Assembly (NCBI GenBank): GCA_014871385.1
Contig: CM026426.1
Coordinates: 41,643,779 to 41,707,778, forward strand
DNA: 64,000 nt
Direction: 5' to 3'
Origin: Ceratodon purpureus
Lineage: Eukaryota; Streptophyta; Bryopsida; Pseudoditrichales; Ditrichaceae
This document shows, piece after piece, positions 4,384-42,147 of the stretch. The position numbers and the translations under genes are program-made. Within the stretch, counting starts at the first letter, position 1, and the number at the start of each line of letters is the position of its first letter. The notes under the pieces were generated by a model, which was not told the DNA's origin, searched no databases, and worked only from the letters and a program-made list of their open reading frames with translations.

Positions 4384-4816
4384 TCACGTTATTGATTTCT
4401 GATGTTTTTGCATCCACTCCGCATCTCCTCGGATCTCATCTTCAAAAGCTTGAATCGCGTCCCTCCATAATGGGCTCCAACCAGCCACAACCTCGTCCGT
4501 AACATCGGCTGTGAGCTCTTCGTTGTTGTACATGGAGATGTACATGACGCGATCCCTATCTCTATATCCCTTAACAAACTCCCGCTCCAAATACTGTACC
4601 CCCATTTTGCCCACTGGTCTAACCTTGGCCATTGAGATCATCCTACACAGGGGCACCAACAATCGCAACTTCTGAGATGGTTTGATCCTGAGGTTGTTGA
4701 TGACGGCTATAGAGTCCACCTTGTGTTGCTTTCGATGATGCAATTCCCCTTCTATAGCACTCTTCAAGTCTATCGGACAAGATGGTTTTGCCAAAACATC
4801 TTGTGTTTGCGTAACC
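4384..4816 (-). pseudogene. Relic of the ParB-like exon (copy of M2 16333-16916)
   Basis: The frame begins after a TTTTGGCAG acceptor with VTQTQDVLAKPS and includes VRPVGKMGVQYLEREFVKGY. It matches the M2 exon at 16333-16916 residue for residue with scattered substitutions and shares the splice acceptor. The match stops right after EWMQ, so the WEGNHRLAAW half of the ParB-like region and all methyltransferase exons are missing. This is the internal deletion breakpoint of M1, near 4420. Confidence 0.7.
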
Positions 4817-4953
4817 TGCCAAAAGGTGTACAAAAGGTGTACAAATCAACAAAAGCCTTGCAAAGCAGACAAGTATATAAAAGAAAATAACAATAACATT
4901 TCATACTTATAAATCATTTGTAACAACTCAATTCTCATATGCGCTTGAAGGTT

Positions 4954-5570
4954 CTATCTACGTGATGCACGCCTATCGTACTCTTTAGAGTGTCTACAGT
5001 TACAGTGACGGCGCCTCCTCCAAAACCGCCTCGTTTGTTGAACCGGGCACGGCAGTATTGCCGGAAGAGCGAAGACCACATGGGCTGGCCGTCTCACTCT
5101 AATAGGCGAGGAAGGAGAGGATGGAGACATTGGCGGTGAACCCAATAGAGGCGAGGTAGGGATGTAGCCCAGGGAAGATGGCTCGTAGACAGAGGAGGTG
5201 GGCATGTACAGAAGAGAGGTAGGCATGTACTACAGGGAATGGACCTCAAAAGGTACACTACCTAAACCTATAGGGTTTGCTACATCACAGGTACAATAAC
5301 GCTGATCAAAGGAATCCGAGAGGTCAGATACGTTGATCACTGAGATGGGGGAGTGGCGGACATCTCAAGAGTTGCATGGGAACATACCTATAGTAAAGGA
5401 AAGAAATAAAGATTAAAATCCACTTAAAATTATGAGAAGTACAATAAGTAATAAGAACAAACTCAAAAACAGAGATAGCCAAAGTTTCAAACGACATAGT
5501 AAACAAGTACCTCGGTCTCTCCTGGAGTTGGGACTTGACGTTGGCTCCCCATATTATCCTCAGAGGATTC
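4954..5570 (-). pseudogene. Relic of the YxPTSP-repeat gene (copy of M2 17046-17657)
   Basis: Two exon relics are visible. The upstream one (about 5511-5570) reads ESSEDNMGSQRQVPTPGETE between an AG acceptor and a GTACTTG donor. The downstream one (about 4954-5390) holds four degenerate YxPTS units and then an arginine-rich tail (RRFWRRRRH). Compared with M2 there is a one-base loss in the early part of the downstream exon and an in-frame TAG just before the first YMPTS unit. Both splice sites of the small exon are shared with M2, which supports the gene model. Confidence 0.6.
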
Positions 5571-10539: not shown

Positions 10540-11285
10540 GGTAGTTAGAAATCTCCTGACTCTTAATAGCGACTAACGTTGGGGCTCAATTGCACCCGGC
10601 TATTAACAGAGAGTTAGATATAGTAATTTGTAGTTGTTGAGATCCGCAAGTCTCAGATCCAGAATCCGGAAGTCTCAGATCCAGAATCCGGATCTCAGAT
10701 CTAGATCTCAGATCCAGAATTTTAGGATCTAGTGGGTCACTAGGCTGCGGGAACTCCGGGCAGGAGATAGTACTTAAGCCAGAAGTTTTCCCAAGGCTTG
10801 CACCTTGTTTTTGTATTCCATTAGATTGTGAAATTCAGAATATGTTTGGAGAAACTGTTGGAGTTTGAGCGAGTGACGGTTGCATAGCAGGTCCATTGTG
10901 GTTCCAGTTGGAAGTACCATTGTTGCCGGTAGGATTCCGGAAGTGTGTTTTCTCGGTTGAGTGAATCAGGAGAGCGCCTGGAGAGATTGGAAAGGTGTCA
11001 AGCGCCGAGTGTTGACGGTTTCCAACGTCCGGAAGGAGCCTGGTGACAAGGACAAAAGCCTGACTAGCCAACCGGAAACCGTCCGGAAGGAGTAACAGTG
11101 TAGAAACAGTACTTGCAGCCGGACCGGAATGTCATTGTAGTATAGGATTCCGTCCCTATATCCAGTACTGAGTAGCCATCCGGCCCGGTACAATAGACAT
11201 ACGGAAATCATACCATCCGGTTGTTAGAATAGGACCAGTAGGTGTCTAGCCACTTTAAGTTACGGGGCAGTGGGTGTCCAGCCAC
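10540..11285 (+). mobile_element. Left part of an old family-1-like LTR, split by M2
   Basis: The stretch matches the region after the ORF in the intact family-1 LTR (for example GCGACTAACG...GGGGCTC at 10563 against 31602, and CCTTGTTTTTGTA at 10801 against 31795). It runs up to GTCCAGCCAC at 11276-11285, where the M2 transposon starts. The remaining LTR sequence resumes at 51664. It is an old, diverged Ty3/gypsy LTR fossil. Confidence 0.75.
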
Positions 11286-11352
11286 GAGGAAAGTTCGTAT
11301 GTGAGCGGAGAGCGTAGAGCGGAGAGCGGAGAGCACAAAATGGAGAGCACAG
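11286..11352 (+). repeat. M2 left terminal region with GAGCGGA array
   Basis: After the 20-bp terminus, words such as GAGCGGAGAGC recur seven times in about 50 bp and end in CACAGAATTGACA. The same array occurs at M1 left (2431-2470) and, with a different outer 15 bp, at all right ends. Clustered terminal repeats are the usual transposase-binding sites of MULEs, which is an inference here. Confidence 0.7.
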
Positions 11353-12055
11353 AATTGACAATTAGCAAAATTTTCAAAAGCAAAGTAGACCCTATAACCG
11401 TGGAAAATTACTAAATTAAGGCTTGATTTTGACACTTTTTTTAGGAAAAGAGTATATTACCGTGGAAATCAGGGTTACCTCTGGTAAGAGTTTATTACGT
11501 TTGTTCTCTAAGATACAAATTAGGGCTGATGTCATGATGACGTCATGCATACAATCCTTTAGATTTGTCATGGATTTAGGCAAGATACAATGATCAGGCG
11601 TTAAGTTTTAGATCAAACAAATAATTCTTTCATAGGATTATGTAAATGCACAAGGAAAAAAACAACTTTCACAGAATATAAAGGAGGCAAGGTTTGAATA
11701 CTTTCTGGAATATTTCAAAATTCGTGTATAATATCTTTACTGCTGAAACCAAGATATACCTTGTTAGAGTCCTTGTCTTCATCGAAGATTACTCTCTCTT
11801 CCTAGGCAGCGAAGCATCTTCATTTGAGTGATACAAGTAGGAGATTTTCATCATGAAACAACACTTGGTAAGCTGGGTTCTAGAGAAGGAGGTGACTCTT
11901 GGTTTCTTTAGCTTGTTTCTAGGTGGCGTATTAGGATAGTGACAGAGTCCTTGGCATTCTGTGCTATATGCGAAGGTAGCGTAGGAGTTCGGGGGGGTCA
12001 ATCTGCAAGCTTGCGTGGAACGTTTTAAGACTACAACAATTTACTGTGTTGCGCG
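11353..12055. other. M2 left interior, no gene
   Basis: This AT-rich stretch shares blocks with M1. A segment containing CGTGTACAATA / AACCAAGATGTA occurs near 11700-11765 and again near 12580-12650, so an internal duplication flanks the 123-aa ORF. Confidence 0.5.
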
Positions 12056-12427
12056 ATGCCGAAGGTGTGTAATGCGAGATCGAAGAGGACGAGAGCGGCT
12101 GTAGGTTTGCCCCGAAAGGCACTGGCAAGTTATCAGGAGCTGCGGCCCTGGCTGTTGGAGGTGGAGCGCGCCAGAGAACGAGGCATGGACCTGCCACCGA
12201 TTAGGCACAACGGAAGCCTCCATGTTGGTGAAGGTGAATGGCGTTGGACAGTGCTTTGTACCAATGAGCTTCTCCGTATTATGGAGTTGTCCCGAATCCC
12301 GTATCCCTTGCTATCGAACGTCGATGAGAATCCAGTTGTTCAGCTGCCCGAAGTGATCATATCGGATGGCGAAACTTGCTGGTTTGATATCGACAAGAGT
12401 TGGACTATATATCCTCCGAAGGATTAG
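12056..12427 (+). CDS. Intact 123-aa orphan protein of M2
   Basis: An uninterrupted frame starts at ATG 12056 (MPKVCNARSKRTRAAVGL) and ends with TAG at 12425. The N-terminus is strongly basic, as in a nuclear or DNA-binding protein. The middle is Glu/Arg-rich and probably helical (LLEVERARERGMDL). The C-terminal half looks like a compact beta-rich domain with several Trp. GC content is higher than in the flanks, as expected of real coding sequence. It is the first gene from the left end and is flanked by a short internal duplication. No family is recognised; an accessory factor of the transposon is one possibility among several. Confidence 0.55.
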   Translation: MPKVCNARSKRTRAAVGLPRKALASYQELRPWLLEVERARERGMDLPPIRHNGSLHVGEGEWRWTVLCTNELLRIMELSRIPYPLLSNVDENPVVQLPEVIISDGETCWFDIDKSWTIYPPKD

Positions 12428-12941
12428 TACTGTGAAGTCTAGCGGGGTGTTTGAATACATTCCTTTAGATTTGGTCCCTTATTGGATCTAGATACGAGTA
12501 TTCCAGCATTATGGTTTTAGATAATATAGAGGATTCTAGGAATAAAACAACTCGAGACCAACTAAAAGAAATGGTCTTAAAAGTTCGTGGAATATTTCAG
12601 AGTTCGTGTACAATAATGGAGTAGCAGAAACCAAGATGTACACCAAGTCAAGAATAGGTAACATGGCTATGGAAATGTGGGATTTTGAATGATTAAAATA
12701 TAAATTACAGCGCAATTTAAATTTTGAGCATTTCTTTTGTAACATTTCATTCTTCATATTATATTTTGACCATTACAGTTGTGACATTTCATCCTCTACA
12801 TACAAGGAGACGATTTGGAAATGAGAATCGTAACAAGTTTAGGTTTAGGGTAGTAGAGTAGACGAAGGATTACGCAATGAACTCCAATTAAATCAAATCA
12901 AATCCAATGAAAACAACAATAGACCGAAGCCTCCTTCAAAC
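12428..12941. other. Spacer with copy of the left-interior block
   Basis: 12465-12660 repeats sequence also present around 11550-11765 and in M1 at 2675-2740 and 3560-3640. The rest is AT-rich, lies downstream of two convergent genes and shows nothing else. Confidence 0.45.
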
Positions 12942-13313
12942 TCACAACATGCTACAGTCGCTACTTTCACTCTCAGAACTAGATGACTCTGAATCTCTTT
13001 CTACCGCCTCGTCATCGACGAATAGAAGAGCCCTGGGATCAAAAGTAGTTGGCCGACTAGGAACATATGTGAGGGCTCCAGATTGAAACGCCTGTGCTAA
13101 GTCCTCTGCGTAGTCCGGAAGTATGAAAGGCTGAATCGGGCTGGAATGAAGACGCCACGATGGAGTGGACACTGCTCTTGGCCCACGTGGCGGTGTTGCT
13201 GAAAGTACTCTGCAATAGAGAACCGATTGTGGTTAGATCGAGTACATAGAGCAGCAAAGAGAAGTAATGCTTGGATAATTTGAACAAAGAATAGAAGACT
13301 TACACCACTTATC

Positions 13314-14273
13314 AGGTCTTGGTCTCTTTGGAGGGGCTTCGTCTGCTGCTGCCGGCCTAGGATGTTTAGGAGGGCCCATGGCGGATGGTCTAGCCATGCA
13401 CGGTTTGAGTAGGGCGTTGAATATGGCTTCGTCCTCCTCAAAAGCGAGAATGTGACGACTAATAGCCTGGGAAACCTTGATGGAGGCCCCTGAAACTCGG
13501 AGAGAAACGAAGAAATGAGAAACTATGGGAAAAACGAGAGGAATAATTAAGCAGAGATATGTATGAATAGTTACATGTCCCAACATTCCAATCAAGAACT
13601 ATGTCGCCGGGCTTTGACAGCTCCTCAATTATGCCCTGCATCATCTCAGGGGATTTCTCCCTTGGGCCTCTCCACGGCACCCCCCCATTCATGAGCTGCG
13701 ATTCCAGATCGGTGAAGTTGAAAATGGCATCACTCTCGGTAATGTTGAGGAGCCCATGTATCAGCTCGGATTTCTTCGTTTGGAAAGAGAAAGTACTGCC
13801 ACTACGAACGTAGACGCGAATCCAGAACCGCATAGTCTGCAGTCAAGCAAAACTAGTGAGTAAAATTAAGCGGAAGGGTTATCAATAAGTAAAGGGAAGG
13901 GTATGTTTAGGGAAATTACCAAGTTCTCGGGGTTCGTAGGAGAAGTCAAGCCGAGTACATTGACGCCCCACCAGTCCTTGAAAAGCACGAAGTCACCACC
14001 CTCAGCTTCTTCCTTGATATCCTTAGCCAGGTTCTGATCAGTGTTGTAGATGAGGCAGAGGGCACCATCTTTCTGCAGGTAATTATGTGCAAAACGGAAG
14101 ATGTCGAATACATAATCCTTCTCGCGAGAGTTCCAAGGCGGAATACTCGTGGGGGGAACGGAAACGGATGGGACAGGAAGATTCTCAGGGATGTCGGCAA
14201 TGATCAAGTCGACTCCCAGATGGTCCTCTTGTTTGCACCGGTCCGGAACTCTGTTTTCGCGGCCTGCTCCAAA
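13314..14273 (-). other. Methyltransferase-like domain of the cargo gene (exons 7-9)
   Basis: Exon 7 reads DLIIADIPENLPV, aligning with the DLIIADPPYNLG type of motif IV in N4-cytosine/N6-adenine DNA methyltransferases. Exon 8 holds REKSPEMMQGIIEELSKPGD followed by IVLDWNVGT, matching the motif X to motif I stretch (eKP..L...II..S.PGD.VLD.F.G.G). Exon 9 continues WASIKVSQAISRHILAFEED, the following helix, strand and acidic residue that holds the SAM ribose. Motif IV precedes X-I, the beta-class order. The catalytic PP-Tyr is replaced (DIPE), and the FxGxG glycines are partly lost (NVGTW). I infer a degenerate or repurposed enzyme fold rather than an active methylase. Confidence 0.65.
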
Positions 14274-16332
14274 CTTGAGGAAACAAGAAAGCAGAGTTAG
14301 TAACTACATAGCGAGTAGAGGTGGCAGAATCCATTAAATGTCAAAATATCGGAACATACCTTGCGAATGAAGTCTTGAGTCTTGATATAATCCGGGTCGC
14401 CACCTTTTCTCTCCTTTCTCTTATTTCGCCGTAACATGGAATCCACAGATGAGTTGAAGACGGAAACATGTGTGGAAATCGAAGCTCCAGCGGAAGAAGT
14501 TGTTTGAGGATATATTTTGGCCTTCCTCTGCTCAAGGAGACCTCTGGTGATCTCCGAAGCACTGATCGAGGAAGGACCTGGTGAAGAAGCTGAAGAAGGC
14601 TTCGTAACCACATTACCTGGAGAGGGCTCTGGTGCCGTCTGGTCTGGAGTGGAAGACGCCGCACCAGTTTGCTGTGAAGCTTGTGAATGTGATCGCAAAG
14701 ATTTCAGTCGCCGAGCTCTCCCTTTCTTCGGTGGAGGAGCCGATGATTGGTCTTCAGGGCCTCCGTCATCTTCAGTAGCATCCATTGTTTCTTCGGCCAC
14801 TACCTCACCGGCATCATGTAAAGTCTTGATGTCCACCTCAGAGTCAATAGTGAAACCGCGAAAACAATCAAGGTACCAGCATCCCTCAAGCAAGTGAGGA
14901 GATTTGTACCTTTTCAACTACTGTGGAGAATAGATACATTGGTCCGAGGTTCTCGACGTCCAAGCACTAAAGTACTTAGGCAGCTCCTGGACGGTGAGGA
15001 CGCCCTTTGGAACAAGCTCTCTCTTAAAGTACCTAAATAAACAATTTTAAAGAAGGTTAGCATCACTGAAATACATACAGCCCATTATTGCGGAAAACGA
15101 ATGACATGAAGATAACATACGTACCGGTAAGTAACCCGCTTGACAACCTCAGCGGTTCCAGGGAATTTAGCGAAGTTAGACTTCTTGTCATAAACCTTCT
15201 CGGCCTTCTTTCCAAGGAACGTCGGGAAGGCCTTGTCCCATAAAAGAATACGTGAACTCTCAACATAAGGCCCCGGTTCTTGGACATCAGGAAAATCCTT
15301 CCAATTGATGATGATGTTCTCCGCTTTGCATATGTCCTCGACTTCATTGATGAGAGTTTCCTCCAACTATAATATAGACGAGAATATATTAGCGATGAGG
15401 TAGAAGTTAAGAAAAATAAACACTATAATGATATTTGAATAATAAATGTAGAAAATATACCCCAGCCCAAAATGAAGCCTTGTTCAACCAAGGGTCGAGG
15501 TCGGTTTCCTTGAATTCGAGCGGAAGGAATCTGTAAGATAGTCTGGAATTTGGGGATGAGTTCCAACACCTCAACCAGCGAGCCTTGTATTTGGGCTCAA
15601 CTGCTGCTGGGACAATTTTCTGTAGCTTCTCAAGGGTCATCTCCGGTTTCGAGAAGTCACTGTAATGTCGATTGATCTACATGAAGAGTGATTATTTTAG
15701 ACGCTACGAAGTAAGGAAATCACGTTGACATACGAAGTATTGTAAATGGCATTAGTGAGTGTGTCACCTCATTGAGGAAGTCGTCACCATTCTTGGGATT
15801 CGCATGGCCAAGTACTTGGTGAAGTCCTTCTTCTTGATGGATTCGACCATTTTCTCAGATGCCTCATTCATGACATCCCAAACTGCATTTGCAGTTTGAT
15901 CCTCCCCTGGTGTCTTCTCAAAGTAGGCTCTCGCTGCGTCGTCGGAGGCTTGTGCGATTTCCCGCTGTTGAAACAAAAGTATTTATCAGGATATTGGAAT
16001 TTATCCAAGTTGCAGAAGCGAAGAATGGATGGCGGCAACACTTACACGGTATAGAAATGCTATAAAAATCTTGGTTGTCAAGGGAAACCACGACGGATTA
16101 GGTGGCTTGTGTTTCAGACATGCATCATATTCGTCAGGGCTCAGGAGGTCTTTAAAATCCTCCACTTTCATCATCCCGAATGGGCGGATTCGAAACAACT
16201 TTGCTGGAAGATTACTCTTGACATGGTCATTCTCAGTCGACCTGAAAAACAAAGTTGAATATTAGAGGAATAAAATGCAGTAGCTCAAAGGTTTGAGTGT
16301 GCACAAAGCAGGATAACAACGGAGATATTTAC

Positions 16333-16916
16333 CAGTTATTGTCGTGCATGGCGTGAAGCAACTTGCCCACATGGCCGCGGGGGTCTAGTATAATGCAATG
16401 TACTGAGATGTGCCATGCTGGGTCGTCCGCATGGTGCTTGTTTATATGTCGGAGCCAGGCAGCGAGGCGGTGGTTACCTTCCCAGACAAAGAACATCTTG
16501 TTGGTGAATTGCATCCACTCCTCGTCTCCACGGATCTCATCATCAAAATGATCACTCGCGGCCCTCCATAAAGGGCTCCAACCAGCTATGGTCTCCGCCG
16601 TAACATCCTTCGTTTGCTCTTCACTGTTGTATATGGAGATGTACATTACGCGGTCCCCATCTCTATACCCCTTAACAAACTCCCGCTCCAAGTGCTGTAC
16701 CCCCATTTCGCCCACTGGTCTAACCTTGGCCATTAAAATCATCCTGCACAGGGGCACCATTAAGCGGGACTTCCTTTCTGGTTGAATCCTGAGTTTGTTG
16801 ATGACGCCAATGGAGTCCAGCTTGTATTGTTTACGGTGCTGCAATTCGCCTTCTAAAGCTGTCTTCAAGTCTTCCGGAGAAGATGGTTTTTCCAACGCTT
16901 CTTGTGTTTGAGTAAC
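16333..16916 (-). other. ParB/sulfiredoxin-like region of the cargo gene (exon 1 of the model)
   Basis: After the acceptor TTTTACAG the exon reads VTQTQEALEKPSSP and later MAKVRPVGEMGVQHLEREF, then DRVMYISIYN, and near its end FFVWEGNHRLAAWLRHIN followed by VHCIILDP. The succession of a P.G...L line, an I.V strand, a G.HRL.A..R loop and a V.V.V strand is the ParB N-terminal pattern. In bacteria such domains bind or cut DNA or hydrolyse CTP. The motif GNHRLAAW is the strongest single piece of evidence. A diverged copy of the first two thirds is in M1. Confidence 0.5.
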
Positions 16917-17045
16917 CTGTAAAACGGTGTGTAAATTAATGTTGGAATCAAAACTTAGAAAGTCTTGCAAAATAGAGAAATATGAAATCACTTCATAATG
17001 ATATTTCGAATACAACAAGTTCAATATCATTTAAGCCTGAAGACT

Positions 17046-17657
17046 CTATCGACGTGATGATCGCCTATAATACTCCCTAGACTGTCTACAGTTCCAATGA
17101 CGGCGCCTCCTCCAGAAACGCCTCGTTTGTTGGACAGGGCATGGTAAAATTGCCAGAAGGGCAAAAACAACATGGCTTGGCCGCCTCACTCTAATAGGCG
17201 AGGATGGAGAGGGTGCAGACATCGGTGGTAAATCCTGTATAGGAGAAGTGGGCATGTAGCGAGAGGAAGTAGGCTCATAGAAAGGGGACGTAGGCATCTA
17301 AACTGGAGATGTAGGCATGTACTGTGAAGAATGGATCTCAGAAGGTACAGTACCAAAACCTACAGAGATTGAGACATCACAAGTACAGTAATGCTGATCA
17401 AATGAATCCGAAAGGTCGGAAACATTGATTACTGAAATGGGGGAATTAGCAGACACCTCTAGAGCATCGGAATATACCTAAGTTATGAAGAAGAAAAAGG
17501 TCAAATTCCAATTTAAAAGGGAGTTAAACAGTAATAATATGACACAATAAATGACGAAATTGCTCAATAATCTAAGTATAAAGGTACGATGTAAGTACCT
17601 CCGTCTCCGCAGGGTGAGAACTTGTGCTTCACTCCCCATATTATCCTCAGACGACTC
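17046..17657 (-). pseudogene. YxPTSP-repeat gene, downstream exons
   Basis: Exon 17657-17599 (ESSEDNMGSEAQVLT) lies between CAG and GTACTT. Exon 17474 to about 17046 starts VYSDALEVSANSP after TAACTTAG. It continues to QYMPTSP units, FYEPTSSRYMPTSP, a Ser/Pro-rich stretch and an Arg-rich tail (RRFWRRRRHWNCR) ending in TAG. Comparison with M1 shows one base lost near the end of the small exon, and an in-frame TAG at 17298 where Tyr or a similar residue of a YMPTSP unit is expected. The YxPTSP units resemble the YSPTSPS heptads of the RNA polymerase II tail, though that is only a short-motif likeness. The upstream exon at 27854 ends in phase 0 and would join this one across the satellite. Confidence 0.55.
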
Positions 17658-20600
17658 CTGAATTTCACACCATATTAAGAAGATTATAATCATATTTGAT
17701 TCCGCACACACTGCTTGCCTACGGCCACTGAGGGCTTTCGGAGCCAAATGCTAACCAACAAGCAAGCATGTAGAAAAAAAAAAGGGATGCCGAGGTGCCT
17801 CATCGGCCCAGCCTTGCAAGGCTGAGCCTCCGCACCCACTGCTTGCCTACGGCCACAGAGAGCTTTCGCGGCCGAAAGCTAACCAACAAGCAAGCATGTA
17901 AAAAAAATAGAGGGATGCCGAGCTGCCTCATCGGCCCAGCCTTGCAAGGCTGAGCCTCCGCACCCATTGCTTGCCTACGGCCACTGAGAGCATTCGGGGC
18001 CGAAAGCTAACCAACAAGCAAGCATGTAGAAAAAAAAAGGGATGCCGAGGTGCCTCATCGGCCCAGCCTTGCAAGGCTGAGCCACCGCACCCACTGCTTG
18101 CCAACGGCCACTGAGAGCTTTCGGGGCCGAATGCTAACCAACAAGCAAGCATGTAGAAAAAGAAAAGGGATGCCGAGGTGCCTCATCGGCCCAGCCTTGC
18201 AAGGCTGAGCCTCCGCACCTACTGCTTGCCTACGCCCACTGAGAGCTTTCGGGGCCGAAAGCAAAACAACAAGCAAGCATGAAGAAAATAAAAAGGGATG
18301 CCGAGGTGCGTCATCCGCCCAGCCTTGCAAGGCTCAGCCTCCGCACCCACTGCTTGCCTATGCCAACTGAGAGCTTTCAGGGCCGAATGCTAACCAACAA
18401 GCAAGCATGTAGAAAAAAAAAGAGATGCCGAGGTGCGTCATCGGCCCAGCCTTCCAAGGCTAAGCCTCCGCACCCAGTGCTTGCCTACGGCCACTCAAAG
18501 CTTTCGGGGCCGAATGCTAATCAACAAGCAAGCATGTAGAAAAAATAGACGTCGGCCGAGGTGCGTCATCGGCCCAGCCTTGCATGGCTGAGCCTCCGCA
18601 CCCACTGCTTGCCTACGCCCACTGAGAGCTTTCGGGGCCGAAACCAAAACAACAAGCAAGCATGTAGAAAAGAAAAAGGGATGCCGAGGTGCGTCATCGG
18701 CCTAGCCTAACATGGCTGAGCCTCCGCACCCACTGCTTGCCTACAGCCACTCAGAGCTTTCGGGGCCGAATGCTAACAAACAAGCAAGCATCTAGAAAAG
18801 AAAAAGGGATGCCGAGGTGCCTCATCAGCCGAGCCTTGCAAGGCTGAGCCTCCGCACCCACTGCTTGCCTACGGCCGCTGAGAGCTTTTGGGGCCGAAAG
18901 CATACGAAGAAGCAAGCATGAAGAAAAAAAAAAAGGATGCCGAGGTGCGTCATCGGCCCAGCCTTGCAAGGCTGAGCCTCCGCACCCACTGCTTGCCTAC
19001 AGCCACTGAGAGCTTTCGGGGCCGAAAGCTAACGAACAAGCAAGCATGTAGAAAAAAAAAAGGGATGCCGAGGTGCCTCATCGGCCTAGCCTTGCAAGGC
19101 TGAGCCTTCGCACCCACTGCTTGCCTACGGCCACAGAGAGCTTTCAGGGCCGAATGCTAACCAACAAGCAAGCATGTAGAAAAAAAAAAGGGATGCCGAG
19201 GTGCGTCATCGGCCTAGCCTTGCAAGGCTGAGCCTCCGCACCAACTGCTTGCCTACGGCCACTGAGAGCTTTTGGGGCCGAATGCTAACCAACAAGCAAG
19301 CATGTAGAAAAAAAAAGAGATGCCCAGGTGCCTCATCGGACCAGCCTTGGAAGGCTAAGCCTCCGCACCCACAGCTTGCCTACGGCCACTCAAAGCATTC
19401 AGGGCGGAATGCTTACCAACAAGCATGCATGCAGAAAAAAAAAAGAGATGCCGACGTGCGTCATCGGCCCAGCCTTGCAAGGCTGAGCCTCCCCACCCAC
19501 TGCTTGCCTCTGCCCACTGAGAGCTTTCCGGGCCGAAAGCAAACCAACAAGCAAGCATGTAGAAAATAAAAAGGGATGCTGAGGTGCCACATCGGCCCTG
19601 CCTTGCCATGCTAAGCCGCCTTACCCACTGCTTGCCTACGGCCACAAAGAGCTTTCAGGGCCGAAAGCATACCAAGAAGCAAGCATGTAGAAAAAAAAAA
19701 GAGATGCGGAGGTGCCTCATCGGCCCAGCCTTGCAAGGCTGACCCTCCGCACCCACTACTTGCCAACGGCCACTGAGAGCCTTCGGGGCCCAAAGCATAC
19801 CAACATGCAAGCATGTAGAAAAAAAAAAGAGATGCCGAGGTGCCTCATCAGCCGAGCCTTGCAAGGCTAAGCCTGCGCACCCACTGCTTGCCTACGGCCG
19901 CTAAGAGCTTTCGGGGCCGAAAGCTAACCAACAAGCAAGCATGTAGTAAAAAAAAAGGGATGCCGAGGGGCCTCATCGGCCCAGCCTTGCAAAGCTGAGC
20001 CTCTGCACCCACTGCTTGCCTACGGCCACTGAGAGCTTTCTTGGCCGAATGCATACCAACAAGCAAGCATGTAGAAAATAAAAAGGGATGCCTTGGTGCC
20101 TCATCGGCCTAGCCTTGCAAGGCTGAGCCTCCGCACACACTGCTTGCCTACGGCCACTGAGAGCTTTCGCGCCCGAATGCTAACCAACAAGCAAGCATGT
20201 AGAAAAGAAAAAGGGACGCCGAGGTGCCTCTTCAGCCGAGCCTTGCAAGGCTCAGCCTCCGCACCCACTGCTTGCCTCCGGCCACAGAGAGCTTTCGGGG
20301 CCGAAAGCATACCAAGAAGCAAGCATCAAGAAAAAAAAAAGGGATGCCTAGGTGCCACATCGGCCCAGCCTTGCAAGGCTGAGCCTCCGCACCCACTGCT
20401 TGCCTAAAGCCACTGAGAGCTTTCGGGGTTGAAAGCTAACCAACAAGCAAGCATGTAGAAAAAATAGAGGGATGCCGAGGGGCCTCATCGACCAAGCCTT
20501 GCAAAGCTGAGCCTCCGCACCCACTGCTTGCCTACGGCCACTGAGAGCTTTTGGGGCCGAAAGCAAACCAACAAGGAAGCATGTAGAAAATAAAAAGGGA

Positions 20601-21374
20601 TGCCGACGTGCGTCATCGGCCCAGCCTTCCAAGGCTGAGCCTCCGCACACACTGCTTGCCTATGGCCACTGAGAGCTTTTGGGGCCGCATGCTAACCAAC
20701 AAGCAAGCGTGTAGAAAAAAAAAAGGATGCCGACGTGCCTCATCGGCCCAGCCTTGCAAGGCTGAGCCTCCGCACCCACTGCTTGCCTACTGCCACTAAG
20801 AGCTTTCGGGGCCGAATGCTAACCAACAAGCAAGCATGTAGAAAAAAAAAAAGGATGCCGAGTCGCCTCATCGGCCCAGCCTTGCAAGGCTGAGCCTCCG
20901 CACCCACTACTTGCCTACGGCCACTGAGAGCTTTCGGAGCCCAAAGCATACCAACATGCAAGCATGTAGAAAAAAAGAAGGGATGCCGAGGTGCCTCATC
21001 AGCCGAGCCTTGCAAGGCTGAGCCTGCGCACCCACTGCTTGCCTACGGCCACTGAGAGCTTTCGGAGCCGAATGCTCACCAACAAGCAAGCATGTAGAAA
21101 AAAAAAAGGGATGCCGAGGTGCGTCATTGGCCCAGCCTTGCATGGCTGAGCCTCCGCACCCACTGCTTGCCTACAGCCACTCAGAGCTTTCCGGGCCCAA
21201 TTCTAACAAACAAGCAAGCATGTAGAAAAGAAAAAGGGATGCCGAGGTGCGTCATCGGCCTAGCCTTGCAAGGCTGAGCCTCCGCACCCACTGCTTGCCT
21301 ACGGCCACTGAGAGCTTTCGGGGCCGAATGCTAACCAACAAGCAAGCATGTAGAAAAAAAAAAGGGATGCCGAG

Positions 21375-23930
21375 TTGCCTCATGGGCCCAGCCTTGCAAG
21401 GCTGAGCCTCCGCACCCACTACTTGCCTATGGCCACTGAGAGCTTTCAGAGCCGAATGCTAACCAACAAGCAAGCATGTAGAAAAAAAAAGAGATGCCGA
21501 GGTGCCTCATCGGCCCAGCCTTGCAAGGCTAAGCCTCCCCACCCACTGCTTGCCTACGGCCACTGAGAGCTTTCGGGGCCGAATGCTCACCAACAAGCAA
21601 GCATGTAGAAAATAAAAAGGGATGCCGAGGTGCGTCATTGGCCCAGCCTTGCATGGCTGAGCCTCTGCACCCACTGCTTGCCTACAGCCACTCAGAGCTT
21701 TCGGGGCCGAATTCTAACAAACAAGCAAGCATATAGAAAAAAAAAAGGGATGCCGAGGTGCGTCATTGGCCCAGCCTTGCATCGCTGAGCCTCCGCACCC
21801 ACTGCTTGCCTACAGCCACTCAGAGCTTTCGGGGCCGAATTCTAACAAACAAGCAAGCATATAGAAAAGAAAAAGGGATGCCGAGGTACCTCATCGGCCC
21901 AGCCTTACAAGGCTGAGCCTCCGCACCCACCGCTTGCCTACGGCCACTGAGAGCTTTCGGGGCCGAATGCTAACCAACAACAAAGCATGTAGAAAATAAA
22001 AAGGGATGCCGAGGTGCGTTATCGGCCCAGCCTTGCAAGGCTGAGCCTCCGCACACACTGCTTGCCTACGGCCACTGAGAGCTTTCGTGCCCGAATGCTC
22101 ACCTACAAGCAAGCATGTAGAAAAGAAAAAGGGATGCCGAGGTGCGTCATCGGCCGAGCCTTGCATGGCTGAGCCTCCGCACCCACAGCTTGCCTACAGC
22201 CACTCAGAGCTTTCGGGGCCGAATGCTTACAAACAAGCAAGCATGTAGAAAAGAAAAAGCGATGCCGAGGTGCCTCATCAGCCGAGCCTTGCAAGGCTGA
22301 GCCTGCGCACCCACTGCTTGCCTACGGCCGCTGAGAGCTTTCAAGGCCCAAAGCATCCGTAGAAGCAAGCATGAAGAAAAAAAAAAGGGATGCCGAGGTG
22401 CCACATTGGCCCAGCCTTGCAAGGCTGAGCCTCCGCACCGACTCCTTGCCTACAGCCACTCAGAGCGTTCGAGGCCGAATTCTAACCAACAAGCAAGCAT
22501 GTAGAAAAAAAAAAGGGATGCCAAGGGGCCTCATCGGCCCAGCCTTGCAAAGCTGAGCCTCCGCACCCACTGCTTGCCTACGGCCACTGAGAGCTTTCGG
22601 GGCCGAATGCTAACCAACAAGCAAGCATGTAGAAAAAAAAAAGGGATGCCGAGTTGCCTCATGGGCCCAGCCTTGCAAGGCTGAGCCTCCGCACCCACTA
22701 CTTGCCTATGGCCACTGAGAGCTTTCAGAGCCGAATGCTAACCAACAAGCAAGCATGTAGAAAAAAAAAGAGATGCCGAGGTGCCTCATCAGCCCTGCCT
22801 TGCAAGGCTAAGCCTTCCCACCCACTGCTTGCCTACGGCCACTGAGAGCTTTCGGGGCCGAATGCTCACCAACAAGCAAGCATGTAGAAAATAAAAAGGG
22901 ATGCCGAGGTGCGTCATTGGCCCAGCCTTGCATGGCTGAGCCTCTGCACCCACTGCTTGCCTACAGCCACTCAGAGCTTTCGGGGCCGAATTCTAACAAA
23001 CAAGCAAGCATATAGAAAAAAAAAAGGGATGCCGAGGTGCGTCATTGGCCCTGCCTTGCATGGCTGAGCCTCCGCACCCACTGCTTGCCTACAGCCACTC
23101 AGAGCTTTCGGGGCCGAATTCTAACAAACAAGCAAGCATATAGAAAAGAAAAAGGGATGCCGAGGTACCTCATCGGCCCAGCCTTACAAGGCTGAGCCTC
23201 CGCACCCACCGCTTGCCTACGGCCACTGAGAGCTTTCGGGGCCGAATGCTAACCAACAACAAAGCATGTAGAGAATAAAAAGGGATGCCGAGGTGCGTTA
23301 TCGGCCCAGCCTTGCAAGGCTGAGCCTCCGCACACACTGCTTGCCTACGGCCACTGAGAGCTTTCGTGCCCGAATGCTCACCTACAAGCAAGCATGTAGA
23401 AAAGAAAAAGGGATGCCGAGGTGCGTCATCGGCCGAGCCTTGCATGGCTGAGCCTCTGCACCCACTGCTTGCCTACAGCCACTCAGAGCTTTCGGGGCCG
23501 AATTCTAACAAACAAGCAAGCATATAGAAAAAAAAAAGGGATGCCGAGGTGCGTCATTGGCCCTGCCTTGCATGGCTGAGCCTCCGCACCCACTGCTTGC
23601 CTACAGCCACTCAGAGCTTTCGGGGCCGAATTCTAACAAACAAGCAAGCATATAGAAAAGAAAAAGGGATGCCGAGGTACCTCATCGGCCCAGCCTTACA
23701 AGGCTGAGCCTCCGCACCCACCGCTTGCCTACGGCCACTGAGAGCTTTCGGGGCCGAATGCTAACCAACAACAAAGCATGTAGAGAATAAAAAGGGATGC
23801 TGAGGTGCGTTATCGGCCCAGCCTTGCAAGGCTGAGCCTCCGCACACACTGCTTGCCTACGGCCACTGAGAGCTTTCGTGCCCGAATGCTCACCTACAAG
23901 CAAGCATGTAGAAAAGAAAAAGGGATGCCG
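21375..23930. repeat. Higher-order repeat: 10-monomer block duplicated (period about 1279 bp)
   Basis: Unusual monomer variants recur at a spacing of 1279 bp (for example those near 21375 and 22654, and near 21891 and 23170). A further 512-bp (four-monomer) step repeats 23170 at 23682. This indicates recent segmental duplication in the right half of the array. Confidence 0.8.
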
Positions 23931-26749
23931 AGGTGCGTCATCGGCCGAGCCTTGCATGGCTGAGCCTCCGCACCCACAGCTTGCCTACAGCCACTCAGAG
24001 CTTTCGGGGCCGAATGCTTACAAACAAGCAAGCATGTAGAAAAGAAAAAGCGATGCCGAGGTGCCTCATCAGCCGAGCCTTGCAAGGCTGAGCCTGCGCA
24101 CCCACTGCTTGCCTACGGCCGCTGAGAGCTTTCAAGGCCCAAAGCATCCGAAGAAGCAAGCATGAAGAAAAAAAAAAGGGATGCCGAGGTGCCACATCGG
24201 CCCAGCCTTGCAAGGCTCAGCCTCCGCACCCACTACTTGCCTATGGCCACTGAGAGCTTTCAGAGCCGAATGCTAACCAACAAGCAAGCATGTAGAAAAA
24301 AAAAGAGATGCCGAGGTGCCTCATCGGCCCAGCCTTGCAAGGCTAAGCCTCCCCACCCACTGCTTGCCTACGGCCACTGAGAGCTTTCGGGGCCGAATGC
24401 TCACCAACAAGCAAGCATGTAGAAAATAAAAAGGGATGCCGAGGTGCGTCATTGGCCCAGCCTTGCATGGCTGAGCCTCTGCACCCACTGCTTGCCTACA
24501 GCCACTCAGAGCTTTCGGGGCCGAATTCTAACAAACAAGCAAGCATATAGAAAAAAAAAAGGGATGCCGAGGTGCGTCATTGGCCCAGCCTTGCATGGCT
24601 GAGCCTCCGCACCCACTGCTTGCCTACAGCCACTCAGAGCTTTCGGGGCCGAATGCTTACAAACAAGCAAGCATGTAGAAAAGAAAAAGCGATGCCGAGG
24701 TGCCTCATCAGCCGAGCCTTGCAAGGCTGAGCCTGCGCACCCACTGCTTGCCTACGGCCGCTGAGAGCTTTCAAGGCCCAAAGCATCCGAAGAAGCAAGC
24801 ATGAAGAAAAAAAAAAGGGATGCCGAGGTGCCACATCGGCCCAGCCTTGCAAGGCTGAGCCTCCGCACCGACTGCTTGCCTACAGCCACTCAGAGCGTTC
24901 GAGGCCGAATTCTAACCAACAAGCAAGCATGTAGAAAAAAAAAAGGGATGCCAAGGGGCCTCATCGGCCCAGCCTTGCAAAGCTGAGCCTCCGCACCCAC
25001 TGCTTGCCTACGGCCACTGAGAGCTTTCCGGGCCGAAAGCATACCAACAAGCAAGCATGTAGAAAATAAAAAGGGATGCCGAGGTGCGTCATCGGCCTAG
25101 CCTTGCAACGCTGAGCCTCCGCACACACTGCTTGCCTATGGCCACAGAGAGCTTTCGGGGCCGAATGCTAACCAAGAAGCAAGCATGTAGAAAAAAAAAA
25201 GGATGCCGAGGTGCCTCATCGGCCCAGCCTTGCAAGGCTGAGCATCCGCACCCACCGCTTGCCTACGGCCACTGAGAGCTTTCGGGGCCGAATGCTAACC
25301 AACAACAAAGCATGTAGAGAATAAAAAGGGATGCTGAGGTGCGTTATCGGCCCAGCCTTGCAAGGCTGAGCCTCCGCACACACTGCTTGCCTACGGCCAC
25401 TGAGAGCTTTCGTGCCCGAATGCTCACCTACAAGCAAGCATGTAGAAAAGAAAAAGGGATGCCGAGGTGCGTCATCGGCCGAGCCTTGCATGGCTGAGCC
25501 TCCGCACCCACAGCTTGCCTACAGCCACTCAGAGCTTTCGGGGCCGAATGCTTACAAACAAGCAAGCATGTAGAAAAGAAAAAGCGATGCCGAGGTGCCT
25601 CATCAGCCGAGCCTTGCAAGGCTGAGCCTGCGCACCCACTGCTTGCCTACGGCCGCTGAGAGCTTTCAAGGCCCAAAGCATCCGAAGAAGCAAGCATGAA
25701 GAAAAAAAAAAGGGATGCCGAGGTGCCACATCGGCCCAGCCTTGCAAGGCTCAGCCTCCGCACCCACTACTTGCCTATGGCCACTGAGAGCTTTCAGAGC
25801 CGAATGCTAACCAACAAGCAAGCATGTAGAAAAAAAAAGAGATGCCGAGGTGCCTCATCGGCCCAGCCTTGCAAGGCTAAGCCTCCCCACCCACTGCTTG
25901 CCTACGGCCACTGAGAGCTTTCGGGGCCGAATGCTCACCAACAAGCAAGCATGTAGAAAATAAAAAGGGATGCCGAGGTGCGTCATTGGCCCAGCCTTGC
26001 ATGGCTGAGCCTCTGCACCCACTGCTTGCCTACAGCCACTCAGAGCTTTCGGGGCCGAATTCTAACAAACAAGCAAGCATATAGAAAAAAAAAAGGGATG
26101 CCGAGGTGCGTCATTGGCCCAGCCTTGCATGGCTGAGCCTCCGCACCCACTGCTTGCCTACAGCCACTCAGAGCTTTCGGGGCCGAATGCTTACAAACAA
26201 GCAAGCATGTAGAAAAGAAAAAGCGATGCCGAGGTGCCTCATCAGCCGAGCCTTGCAAGGCTGAGCCTGCGCACCCACTGCTTGCCTACGGCCGCTGAGA
26301 GCTTTCAAGGCCCAAAGCATCCGAAGAAGCAAGCATGAAGAAAAAAAAAAGGGATGCCGAGGTGCCACATCGGCCCAGCCTTGCAAGGCTGAGCCTCCGC
26401 ACCGACTGCTTGCCTACAGCCACTCAGAGCGTTCGAGGCCGAATTCTAACCAACAAGCAAGCATGTAGAAAAAAAAAAGGGATGCCAAGGGGCCTCATCG
26501 GCCCAGCCTTGCAAAGCTGAGCCTCCGCACCCACTGCTTGCCTACGGCCACTGAGAGCTTTCCGGGCCGAAAGCATACCAACAAGCAAGCATGTAGAAAA
26601 TAAAAAGGGATGCCGAGGTGCGTCATCGGCCTAGCCTTGCAACGCTGAGCCTCCGCACACACTGCTTGCCTATGGCCACAGAGAGCTTTCGGGGCCGAAT
26701 GCTAACCAAGAAGCAAGCATGTAGAAAAAAAAAAGGATGCCGAGGTGCC
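23682..26749. repeat. Higher-order repeat: 12-monomer block duplicated (period 1534 bp)
   Basis: Positions 23682, 23995, 24162, 24506, 24634, 24801 and 25084 recur almost unchanged at 25216, 25529, 25696, 26040, 26168, 26335 and 26618, each 1534 bp later. It is the youngest duplication in the array by similarity. Confidence 0.85.
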
Positions 26750-27853
26750 TCATCGGCCCAGCCTTGCAAGGCTGAGCATCCGCACCCACTGCTTGCCTAC
26801 TGCCACTGAGAGCTTTCGGGGCCGAATGCTAACCAACAAGCAAGCATGTAGAAAAAATAGAGGGATGCCGAGGTGCGTCATCGGCCTAGCCTTGCATGGC
26901 TGAGCCTCCGCACCCACTGCTTGCCTACGGCCACTGAGAGCTTTTGCGCCCGAATGCTTACCAACAAGCAAGCATGTAGAAAAGAAAAAGGGATGCCTAG
27001 GTGCCTCATCGGCCTAGCCTTGCAAGGCTGAGCCTCCGCACCCACTGCTTGCCTACGGCCACTAAGAGCTTTCGGGGCCGAATGCTAACCAACAAGCAAG
27101 CATGTAGAAAATAAAAAGGGATGCCGAGGGGCCTCATCGGCCCAGCCTTGCAAGGCTGAGCCTCCGCACCCACTGCTTGCCTATGCCCACAGAGAGCTTT
27201 CGGGGCCGAAAGCTAACCAACAAGCAAGCATGTAGAAAAAATTGAGGGATGCCGAGGTGCGTCATCGGCCCAGCCTTGCAAGGGTGAGCCTCCGCACCCA
27301 CTGCTTGCTTACGGCCACTGATAGCTTTCAGGGCCAAATGCTAACCAACAAGCAAGCATGTAGAAAAAATAGAGGGATGGGGAGGTGCGTCATCGGCCCA
27401 GCCTTGCAAGGCTGAGCCTCCGCACCCACTGCTTGCCTACGGCCACTAAGAGCTTTCATGGCCGAATGGTAACAAACAAGCAAGCATGTAGAAAAAATAG
27501 AGGGATGCCGAGGTGCCTCATCGGCCCAGCCTTGCAAGGCTGAGCCTCCGCACCCACTGCTTGCCTACGGCCACTGAGAGCTTTCGGGGCCGAATGCTTA
27601 CCAACAAGCAAGCATGTAGAAGAAAAAAAGGGATGCCGAGGTGCCTCATCGGCGCAGGCTTGCAAGGCTGAGCCTCCGCACCCACAATTTCATCTCAGTT
27701 AGTCACACTACCAACATACAAACCCCAATCCTCCCAGCGTTACCCACGACTCACCCACAATCAAACATACATACCCGAACCCACATTCTCAGCAAACCCT
27801 AATCTCATCAAATTCCGATTCGCACAATCGCAACAGGGGTAGGATGCTTACCT

Positions 27854-28538
27854 CGATTGCAACGTTCTCGTCACCTTGGGCGTCGCCGAGAGCACCTTCC
27901 CTTTCGTCGTCATCCTCCTCTCCTTTGTGGTGATTGTCCTCACGGTCTCCTTCTTGGTCGTCTTCATCCTCCTCTCCTTCTTGGTCATCGTCTTCCTGGT
28001 CTCCTTCTTGGCTGTCGACCTCCTGCTCCCCGTCGTGGTGGTCGTCGTCCTGCTCGCCTTCGTGGTCGTGGTCCTTGTGCTCTCCCGCAAGGACGTCGTC
28101 TCCTTCAACCTTTGGCACCTCCTGGACGACTGCCCCAATTGCCCTCCCTGCCTCATGGTCCATCTCCGCAGCACCAGTCGCACCCCCTGCTTCCCTCCCC
28201 GACCCACGCCCTCCGCGGCCCGCACCTCCACGCCGTCTCCTCCCAACTTGCTTCTCCGAACCCTGCTTCTCAGACTTTCGACCTGCTCCTCGCCCAACCC
28301 CACGCGCACTACGGCCCACGCGTCTTTGCCCACGTTTTATATGACCTCCGCGGGCCGCAAGAGCTCGATCTACGGCCTCCCCTTCTTCCATAATTGCTCG
28401 TCTCGCTCTCGCAGCTCTACCTCGCCATTCGCTTGAACCCTCTTGCGCTTCTTCTCCACTCACTTCTTCTCTTACTCCTCCACTTTGTTTAGCAAACCTC
28501 GATCCCCCTCCCTCATTCCACTTCCTCAAAAGACGCAA
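27854..28538 (-). CDS. Acidic/RG-rich exon of the YxPTSP gene
   Basis: The frame is open for about 230 codons. The first half is Arg/Gly-rich (RRVGRSARGVGRGAGR, RRRRGGAGRGGRGSGR). The second half is a run of acidic near-repeats of the type DDQEGxxEDD and HHDGEQE. It ends in DENVAIE at a strong donor (GAG|GTAAGC), phase 0, which fits the small ESSEDN exon at 17657. The acceptor is not settled (CCTCAG near 28551 or TTTGAG near 28526). Mixed basic and acidic low-complexity tracts are common in nuclear proteins that bind chromatin or RNA. The long plus-strand frames across it are its antisense. Confidence 0.5.
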
Positions 28539-28545
28539 GTTAGCA

Positions 28546-28745
28546 AAACTGAGGAAATAATTTTCAAAAAATAACTGCGCGCGAACTAGAATTAAGAATT
28601 CTCAACACCAAAATCACGAGAATTTTACGTCAAAACTATGTTTAAAATCTGAGAATTTGCAATAATTCAAACATTGTAAGGGTCATGGTTTCAACTAAAA
28701 GAAATAAAATACAGTTTCAACAATGGAACGAGATCAGTAACTTAC
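28546..28745 (-). other. Intron of the YxPTSP gene
   Basis: AT-rich sequence between the GTAAGT donor at 28745 and the next exon. Confidence 0.45.
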
Positions 28746-28993
28746 TTCGGTAGAAAGAGTACCCTCTTCAGGAAGTGACCCGTTTAAGCCAAACGAAGGC
28801 TGCGGAGACTGTGGTGTCTCTAAACCATCAAACTCTAAATCTTCCGTCATCTCCTTATCATTTTCGAGCATGTTTTTTACAGCGTGGTCACAAACCGTGA
28901 CATCTAAATCCTCCTCTTTAATTTTCACTATAGAATCTAGAATGACTTCACGAATGCCAAAGGCAGCCCAGCTCCGCGAACCTTCAGAGGTGC
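28746..28993 (-). CDS. Upstream exon of the YxPTSP gene
   Basis: The frame includes IREVILDSIVKIKEEDLDV, then an acidic stretch (ENDKEMTEDLEFDGL) and ends GTLSTE at a perfect donor (GAA|GTAAGT). The frame stays open upstream to about 29030, and its start or acceptor is not identified. The nested retrotransposon begins 120 bp further upstream, so the promoter or first exon of this gene may lie across it at 45663-46200. The phase at its end does not fit simply with the next exon, so a small exon may be missed. Confidence 0.4.
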
Positions 28994-29493
28994 ACTCAAG
29001 AGGTTCCCTCTCGACTTTGCCTTTCTACGTGATTCTCTCCTCCTCCTCGCTCTCCTATTCGTAAAGTCTGTACCATATGCTTTCCTTCTAGGTCTATGAG
29101 TCACAGAAGTGAATGTGGAAAGTGATTTCCACGGTTGACACACCGGAATACTAATTCCGGTAGGAAAATGATAAAAAAATTAAAAATTTTATGTTAGAAA
29201 TACGGAAGTACTAAGCCTATAAGTAAAACAACCGGTTAAGCCGGTCGGCTGAATAAATAAGTGACCGGAAGGCCAGCCGGGTGAGATCCGGTCGTCTGCG
29301 GTGGAGGAGAGACGGGTACAGTCCATATGACAGAGCCCTGACCCGGCAGACTTAAGGATAACCACCAAAAGGTACAACGCACACGGGGATAATGGCTGCA
29401 ACCATTAAAACGCCGCCGATCGCGACCGTCCAATGATGAGGGGCTACGACCGTCCGTCATGATGAGCTACGAACGGGTGGGCGCGAGGGCAGG

Positions 29494-29500
29494 TATAAAA
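29494..29500 (+). promoter_or_regulatory. LTR TATA box
   Basis: TATAAAA lies about 200 bp before the LTR ORF start. It is repeated at 42528-42534 in the other LTR, where it would drive transcription into the right part of M2. Confidence 0.65.
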
Positions 29501-29702
29501 GGAGGAAGAACCGCCATGCTCCTCCTTTCTCTTTGTCATTTTGTGGCACGACGGGTCCTTGCGCTCTAAGGCGGAGGGCGCAGTTAGGGTTAGACGGTAG
29601 GAGAGAGACGGTGAGACGGAAGTGTTTCCGTTAGGCGAGAGATTGTGGTGAGGATCGTGCGTGCAGGTGTTACCGGAGTGACGGAGAGGAGGACTTAGCA
29701 GA

Positions 29703-31568: not shown

Positions 31569-32632
31569 GGTTTAGGATAAGGACCGGATAAAATGGCAGC
31601 GACTAACGATGGGGCTCCAGTGCACCCGGCTGCCAATCCGGATAGATAGCGGCAGTAACTAGGAATAGAAGGCGGCCACCGGTCCGGGATTCCCGGATCC
31701 AAGATCCGGAATTTCTGGATCTCGGGGGCCACTTGGTCGTTGTAGGAACCGATAGGTTTTAGTATTTAAGTTAGACGTTTTTCCAAGGCCAGGGCCTTGT
31801 TTTTGTACGCCGTTTTGTTGTTGCAATTGAGAATATACTTTTGATTTGTTGTGTCAACCGGCTGCTGACGGGTCCGTTGCCGTATGGTTTGTGGTACTAT
31901 TGTCTTCAGTAGTGTTCCGGAGGAGTGTTGAACAGTAGGAAGGTCGGGAGAGCGCCCGGAGAGACTGGGGAGGTGTCAAGCGTCGAGTGTTGACGGTTTC
32001 CAGTCCCGGAAGGAGCCCGTAGGGGAGGAGAGACGTATTGCAGCAGGGCTGGTAGTCTCAAGGACACGGAGGGCCGTGTGTACACCGGGATCCGGAAACG
32101 GACCGGTCGCTTCCTGTAGATGGGATAAAAGCCGGATGCCCTACTGCGAACCAATACGGAAGGAAGATAGTATGGTAGGATACCGTGCAGCCGTAAGGTG
32201 ATGTCATTGTAGTATGATTTCCGTATCCGTAACCGGTACTGAGTAGTTATCCGGACCGGTCCATAGCAGTACGGAAGGATTATTACTCCACTTCTCGGGT
32301 GGTAGATAGGAACAGTGGGGTGTCCAGCCACTTTAAGTCACAGGACGGTGGAAAATCCAGCCACTTGAAAGGATAGACGGATCAGTGGGAACCGGCCACT
32401 AGTCTAAAAAGCCGGAAAATAGGAACGAGGCAAAAACTACCGGAGTTGTCCAACCGTCTGTAAGACGGTGTACGGTCGGACACGGGTGGTGATTTCCGTT
32501 AAAATCTAAAAGGAAGAAAACTATAGGTCTTCGTGGGAACGAACACGGAGTGGTTTACTTTGGAGGGTATTTAGTGTCAATTAAGTGCCTTCCGGAGGAA
32601 TACTGATACCACGTCGTGCTTCATGTGATTTT

Positions 32633-32650
32633 TGGCGCCGCTGCCGGGGA
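32633..32650 (+). other. Primer binding site, tRNA-Asp type
   Basis: TGGCGCCGCTGCCGGGGA lies ten bases after the LTR. Apart from one base it is the tRNA-Asp-complementary site common in plant Ty3 elements. Confidence 0.85.
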
Positions 32651-32717
32651 TCTATATGATTTTCTTCCTCCGGATTTCTACGGTTGTCACTAACCCAAGT
32701 CAGGTTGTAGAAAACGC

Positions 32718-34283: not shown

Positions 34284-34292
34284 CGGTTACCG

Positions 34293-42136: not shown

Positions 42137-42147
42137 AAAAGGAGTAA
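42132..42147 (+). other. Polypurine tract
   Basis: GGTGAAAAAGGAGTAA directly before the 3-prime LTR, the expected plus-strand primer. Confidence 0.75.

Follow-up and report, generated by a model that had tools for sequence, protein, structure and literature searches.

A ParB-methylase-like accessory gene in a high-copy MULE-like transposon of the moss Ceratodon purpureus, and palindromic arrays as its candidate binding sites

The 64,000-nucleotide stretch of Ceratodon purpureus DNA analysed here (assembly GCA_014871385.1, contig CM026426.1, positions 41,643,779 to 41,707,778 of the forward strand; hereafter the window) probably carries a decayed copy of a high-copy Mutator-like element (MULE)-like moss transposon with an accessory ParB-methylase gene, whose protein would bind palindromes in the arrays of its own element and counter silencing. 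We give this interpretation as a whole a probability of about 0.5. It is supported directly by the domains of the protein, the linkage of the gene to a transposase, selection on the 5' exons, a change in the methyltransferase motif and the conservation of a palindrome in young copies of the element.

The gene lies at 16916..12942 on the minus strand, where ten exons and nine GT-AG introns with matching phases can be placed. Copy a, an open copy of the element family, served as a reference for comparison. The exons, together with two conserved exons upstream of them, are:

E1, 16333..16916, minus strand: ParB/sulfiredoxin-fold domain with the EGNHRLAAW motif
E2, 16046..16241, minus strand: linker
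E3, 15788..15964, minus strand: linker, 3' end frameshifted relative to copy a
E4, 15461..15676, minus strand: linker
E5, 15125..15366, minus strand: linker
E6, 14360..15032, minus strand: linker, contains the in-frame TAG at 14920-14918
E7, 13920..14273, minus strand: methyltransferase domain, motif IV position DLIIADIPEN
E8, 13575..13836, minus strand: methyltransferase domain, motif I VLDWNVGT
E9, 13304..13489, minus strand: end of the methyltransferase domain (ASIK...AFEED...), start set by comparison with copy a
E10, 12942..13207, minus strand: acidic C-terminus
Upstream exon, 17046..17477, minus strand: RNA polymerase II C-terminal domain (CTD)-like heptads and Arg-rich end, with an extra TAG at 17300-17298 in the window copy
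Upstream exon beyond the array, 28734..29104, minus strand: related to copy a 1132-1677

The GNHRLAAW, DLIIADIPENLPV and SKPGDIVLD blocks reported in the preliminary description are all found where it had placed them, and the motif IV place (E7) precedes motif I (E8), which is the beta-class order it had proposed. Its nine introns fared less evenly: all can be placed with matching phases, but one junction is not that of the family because the 3' end of E3 is frameshifted relative to copy a, in which the alternative frame is read through to another donor. The window copy is thus damaged, by this frameshift and by the TAG at 14920-14918, which stops the reading and at which copy a is open. The codon spanning intron 8 reads W in the window copy, at the position of the second glycine of motif I, and G in 32 of 39 readable rows (the window being counted twice); a first splice choice for this intron, with an extra FS at the junction, was dropped when copy a showed the family junction. 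A gene start at 16916 was rejected because of the conserved same-strand exons upstream, at 17477-17046 and 28734-29104. In the window and in copy a, the exon at 17046-17477 contains YMPTSPV heptads followed by a conserved Arg-rich end and a stop. The copy a version of this CTD-like exon matches PF05001 with an E value of 0.0011 and 19.5 bits, under the cut-off of 20.3, and the exon is possibly a separate short isoform or gene.

The motif G-x-[HR]-R-x-x-A is conserved in the ParB/sulfiredoxin superfamily. Of the 78 relatives found for the ParB part, fragments included, 68 contain GxHRxxA, and G147, N148 and H149 are invariant across 52 ParB-part sequences; assignment of the E1 region to the ParB/sulfiredoxin-superfamily fold was upheld. 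The profile check had a divided outcome: the cut-off of PF01555 (26.7 bits) was passed by 4 of 6 copies (best 39.9; window copy 26.5), whereas PF02195 did not match the spliced window protein, 3 members of one alignment or 52 members of another. Searches with the ParB part gave no match in PHROGs, one chance-level row in NCBIfam and chance-level rows alone among the sequences of solved structures; a single-sequence search with the full-length protein gave no match at E 0.001. Single-sequence fold prediction was uninformative (pLDDT 39.4), and no helix-turn-helix was identified in the protein, the linker of which was not modelled. The databases contain 78 relatives of the ParB part and 19 of the methyltransferase part, at 31-93% identity. 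No relative of the ParB part was confirmed by pattern and tblastn searches in prokaryote contigs of 84,980 species or in IMG/VR viral contigs, the scans of both sets giving pattern matches alone (the methyltransferase part was not scanned in either set). Because the ParB part has no confirmed prokaryotic or IMG/VR viral relative, the family looks eukaryotic, as far as these sequence searches reach.

About 500 residues separate the ParB part from the methyltransferase part. In the latter, DIPE replaces the motif IV DPPY of DpnA and CcrMI at the aligned place. DIPE occurs in 37 of 40 readable rows of the family and in all 13 readable database relatives, and [DNS]PP[YFW] is absent from all 19 relatives of the methyltransferase part. 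Motif I and the acidic AFEED position are kept in the family. Judged by its motifs, the domain is one that retains the S-adenosylmethionine (SAM)-site motifs and has lost the catalytic DPPY. The gene is not classed as an active methyltransferase because the catalytic motif reads DIPE, and such activity was abandoned as the principal interpretation. Overall, the proposal of a gene combining a ParB region with a bacterial-type DNA methyltransferase fold is supported.

The 362-Mb assembly (151 contigs) contains 2469 candidate places for the methyltransferase exon, 1905 for the ParB exon and 1714 for the transposase start, 150 of each having been scored; the confirmed ParB-exon matches are the 150 listed. 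Among these listed ParB exons, 137 of 150 have no internal stop, at least 61 are followed 2.75-3.08 kb downstream on the same strand by a listed methyltransferase exon (controls 0, 0, 0), and for at least 34 a listed transposase in divergent orientation lies 2-20 kb upstream (controls 1, 1, 0). At least 43 of the 150 listed methyltransferase rows have such a transposase at a distance of 2-25 kb (controls 1, 0, 1). In ten young copies on seven contigs, each examined over 20 kb, the gene block is 94-98% identical to that of copy a. These copies share the terminus ...GCTCACRTACGAACTTTCCCC, beyond which their flanks differ, and the left end of the window element matches it. The gene block of copies a, d and h corresponds to window 17480-11285 at 84%, and the block beyond their tandem array matches all or part of window 46870-45962, the transposase start, in divergent orientation.

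Comparison of copy a with the window revealed an excess of third-position substitutions (counts for codon positions 1/2/3) in E1 (31/30/71), E2 (6/0/26), E4 (11/8/29) and the upstream exon at 17046-17477 (18/14/48). The excess is less strong in E3 (6/7/14), E5 (12/9/19), E6 (37/31/53) and E8 (3/5/11), and changes are few in E9 (5/2/5) and E10 (5/3/7). The NG86 dN/dS of this pair is 0.27 over 1040 codons, with 0.18 for E1-E5, 0.36 for E6 and 0.45 for E7-E9. On these sequence comparisons the 5' exons are clearly under purifying selection, and the evidence for such selection on the methyltransferase exons is weaker. On balance the observation in the preliminary description is confirmed in part, 16916..12942 being an incomplete extent of the gene.

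In all ten young copies, repeats with a unit of 190-213 bp stand in tandem upstream of the conserved exons; copy a has a further conserved exon (1132-1677) on the same strand, beyond the array. These units carry a 24-bp palindrome, CCTACTGTCGT-YR-ACGACAGTAGG. A search that tolerated up to 8 mismatches in the arms and required more than 100 bp between sites gave 145 sites in the young copies, 141 of them perfect. Mean column conservation was 0.998 for the arms and 0.655 for the 2-bp centre, compared with 0.749 and 0.782 for the 60-bp flanks, and unit consensuses of different arrays fall to 66% identity. An alternative tally of 122 of 122 perfect sites was not used, being built in because the units had been cut at perfect palindromes. 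When each young-copy unit was shuffled 200 times, no unit gave an inverted repeat of this length more than once. Copies b and j also contain two 53-bp arrays, which lack any palindrome. Within the window, two features bear on this comparison:

Tandem array, 17701..27685, no strand assigned: 128-bp unit, 78 copies, containing CAGCCTTGCAAGGCTG
Relic of a second copy, 4384..5560, minus strand: part of E1 and upstream exons

The window array is unrelated to the young-copy arrays, and degenerate 24-mers accompany the relic, at 5915 (6 mismatches) and 6851 (4). Beyond the end of copy d lies a distant ParB-type relative with stops (E1 39% identical; E3 and E4 found, no methyltransferase exon found), and the arrays directly upstream of it carry GGAGTGCCGT-CA-ACGGCACTCC, perfect in 10 of 15 sites, and AAAAGCAGTGCCGT-TA-ACGGCACTGCTTTT; beyond copy f, 108-bp tandem arrays lie between the exons of a third, distant ParB-methylase relative and carry CCTCGG-TG-CCGAGG, perfect in 13 of 25, which is weak evidence, and the sites in both places were chosen by palindrome likeness, so that their arm figures lean upward. 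The core CGT-YR-ACG is common to the young-copy palindrome and those beyond copy d. A short array with GGGCTCTCGG-TR-CCGAGAGCCC was also seen about 0.7-1.1 kb beyond the element end of copy g, with no ParB or methyltransferase exon found nearby.

In VANDAL MULEs, the motifs bound by VANC proteins accumulate in tandem repeats, located upstream of the transposase and within accessory-gene introns (PMC5735166), and rapid divergence of VANC targets has been described (PMC10398659). Self-targeted anti-silencing or promoter control is proposed for the moss gene because its layout resembles VANC/VANDAL with unrelated parts. The intron-rich accessory gene, divergent to the transposase, encodes a ParB/sulfiredoxin fold, a long linker and an N6/N4-methyltransferase fold; if the upstream exons are spliced on, the product would in addition gain a basic N-terminus and heptads like those of the RNA polymerase II CTD. 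In the most likely mechanism, a dimer of this protein would recognise the array palindromes of its own element in a parS-like manner and cover or mark the array region, perhaps through a nucleotide-gated clamp like that of bacterial ParB. The array region between the two genes would thereby be kept open against host silencing. The pseudo-methyltransferase domain would act as a SAM-sensing or DNA-gripping module with no enzyme activity. The passage from conservation to binding and on to anti-silencing is one that we infer, as are the choice of binding domain and any spreading. The candidate gene closest to the arrays encodes a ParB fold, bacterial ParB kin use palindromic parS sites, and a dimeric DNA-binding protein would be the simplest reason for a fixed 24-bp palindrome with a free centre despite array turnover. 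Tentatively, one could go further and see here a ParB-parS counterpart that evolved inside a plant DNA transposon, in which a protein with a dead methyltransferase and CTD-mimic repeats loads on the palindromes of an intronic array, spreads and blocks silencing, palindrome and protein evolving together in each lineage.

Several observations weigh against the binding and anti-silencing interpretation. E7 has no third-position excess (10/9/8, copy a versus window). In young pairs dN/dS is higher, 0.31 to 0.40 overall, 0.53 to 0.70 in E6 and 0.39 to 0.54 in E7-E9, and for E7-E9 it is 0.28 to 0.45 in older pairs and in copy a versus the window. The palindrome of the window array, CAGCCTTGCAAGGCTG, is perfect in 24 of 79 sites, with a conservation of 0.94 against 0.88 and 0.92 in the flanks, and its shuffle test was weak (4 of 200). 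Among 13 array rows outside the ten elements, arms reach at least 8 in 5, and for 2 of these no ParB or methyltransferase exon was found nearby.

The array, lying between two genes, could be used by either, and it may instead be bound by the transposase or act as a hairpin or replication element, the ParB-methylase having another role, e.g. DNA nicking as in bacterial ParB-methylases. Hairpins can form from long palindromes, no ParB exon was found near the palindromic array of copy g, and nicking by the ParB domain of Bce_0392 is described in PMC5512222. We consider this explanation somewhat unlikely, since in copy a the array sits between two conserved exons on the strand of the ParB gene, a separate palindrome of like design, again with a short centre, belongs to a distant ParB copy, and arm changes affect just 4 of 145 sites, an exactness not required for a hairpin alone. 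Biased gene conversion or array homogenisation around a recombination-prone palindrome could also preserve the sequence with no protein bound, as tandem arrays homogenise and palindromes can start recombination; the same arms recur across arrays otherwise down to 66% alike, however, and the 2-bp centre varies, which makes this unlikely.

As to the protein itself, it could be an active adenine or N4-cytosine DNA methyltransferase, marking its own element with the ParB-like part for aiming. The PF01555 match and the kept motif I and AFEED position speak for this, and adenine methylases are known in DIRS retrotransposons (PMC5890265). The replacement of DPPY by DIPE, in 37 of 40 rows and 13 of 13 readable relatives with none of 19 relatives carrying [DNS]PP[YFW], renders such activity quite unlikely. 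Finally, capture of gene pieces is common among MULEs, decay has affected the window copy and E7 lacks the third-position excess, as would suit passenger DNA captured in Pack-MULE style and useless to the element. This is very improbable in view of the equal spacing and orientation in many copies, the dN/dS of 0.27 with third-position excess in the 5' exons, the 137 of 150 listed ParB exons without an internal stop, and the relatives of both parts at 31-93% identity.

The predicted self-targeting protein of the moss element can be compared with known systems. Like VANC of Arabidopsis VANDAL21/Hiun, it is an accessory protein beside a transposase, here a putative MULE transposase, and its predicted targets, like those of VANC (PMC5735166, PMC10398659), are short motifs in noncoding or intron tandem repeats of its own element with fast turnover. 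VANC, in contrast, consists of DUF1985/DUF287 and recognises the 9-bp motif YAGTATTAY, whereas the moss element has a ParB/sulfiredoxin fold, a methyltransferase fold and a 24-bp palindrome; in a Pfam scan at E values up to 1, the spliced window protein matched PF01555, PXA and DUF4774 alone, and neither DUF1985 nor DUF287. Bce_0392 and its relatives (PMC5512222) likewise join a ParB-type and an adenine-methylase-type domain in one protein. The moss gene differs from them in its introns, the roughly 500 residues between the domains, DIPE in place of DPPY, and a ParB part unmatched in PHROGs, viral contigs and prokaryotic contigs. The likeness to bacterial ParB-parS concerns the N-domain, by fold only. 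Other transposons carry DNA methyltransferase-fold genes, Dam-like in DIRS and DNMT in Symbiodinium and Klebsormidium retrotransposons (PMC5890265), but the moss element is a DNA transposon with another methyltransferase class, an altered catalytic motif and a ParB-like partner. In the literature searched (titles and abstract starts, with subscription journals mostly outside the scope) no mention of a ParB-like plant transposon gene was found.

To our knowledge, sequence-specific anti-silencing encoded by transposable elements has been worked out in detail for VANCs alone. If our interpretation is true, an unrelated moss system would mean that this strategy evolved more than once, and a bacterial partition fold would be tied to chromatin control in plants. 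The family-wide DIPE motif would represent a natural pseudo-methyltransferase, and the abundance of the element (1,714 to 2,469 candidate places per single exon, 150 of each scored) would make it a large shaper of the genome. Binding could be tested directly, given such short, exact sites and the availability of open copies.

The transposon and the remaining features of the window are:

MULE-like DNA transposon with nested retrotransposons, 11286..51653, no strand assigned: 10-bp duplication, inverted ends, left end common to ten young copies
Target-site duplication GTCCAGCCAC, left, 11276..11285, no strand assigned
Target-site duplication GTCCAGCCAC, right, 51654..51663, no strand assigned
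Terminal inverted repeat core, left, 11297..11355, plus strand: GAGCGGAGAGC-rich, from blastn of the left end against the reverse complement of the right end
Terminal inverted repeat core, right, 51576..51642, minus strand: same blastn comparison
Small open reading frame (ORF), 12056..12427, plus strand: 123 aa, open in the window as well as in copies a, d, f and g, the four compared
Transposase open frames, broken, 46179..49971, plus strand: SWIM-like CxC...CxH end, divergent from the ParB-methylase gene
Nested long terminal repeat (LTR) retrotransposon, 29105..45661 by blastn (29114-45657 by eye), no strand assigned: terminal repeats 29105-32628 and 42140-45661, 99.8% identical

The 10-bp GTCCAGCCAC adjoins both element ends directly; MULE target-site duplications are of about 9-11 bp. 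A second common 10-mer, CACTTTAAGT, at 11251 and 51661, shows that the insertion target was a small local repeat. The inverted terminal sequence spans 67 columns at 79% identity, with short inner matches, and the repeats have diverged. The broken transposase frames of the window have no match to PF10551 and a weak SWIM match (12.3 bits, cut-off 19.6), and relatives with open frames of about 745 aa exist. The element is labelled a MULE on the basis of its duplication length, its ends and this weak SWIM match. A gene unrelated to the MULE, whose transposase lies 29 kb off beyond satellite and retrotransposons, was considered and rejected in view of copies a, d and h, the target duplication and the empty site. 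In copy a, the sequences that flank the LTR retrotransposon in the window are separated by 8 bases, and the distance is similar in copies b, c, d, f, g and h; because its flanks adjoin in these seven copies without the insertion, the retrotransposon is taken to split the MULE.

Its terminal repeats of 3.5 kb each contain a 628-aa open frame, and its insertion into the MULE appears recent. A duplication GTGAA was seen by eye at 29109-29113 and 45658-45662, and a script search within 6 bases of the blastn bounds found none. The 123-aa ORF at 12056-12427 has no third-position excess and no Pfam match; in copy d a stretch related to it lies inverted, just outside the element end. An inverted 1.4-kb match of 90% links 50236-51628 with 62636-64000, i.e. 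the right end of the MULE with the left end of a neighbouring element, both with GAGCGGA-rich termini. Related retrotransposon pieces, 79-87% identical, occupy 36262-39915 and 56167-59342 as nested insertions in or beside the element.

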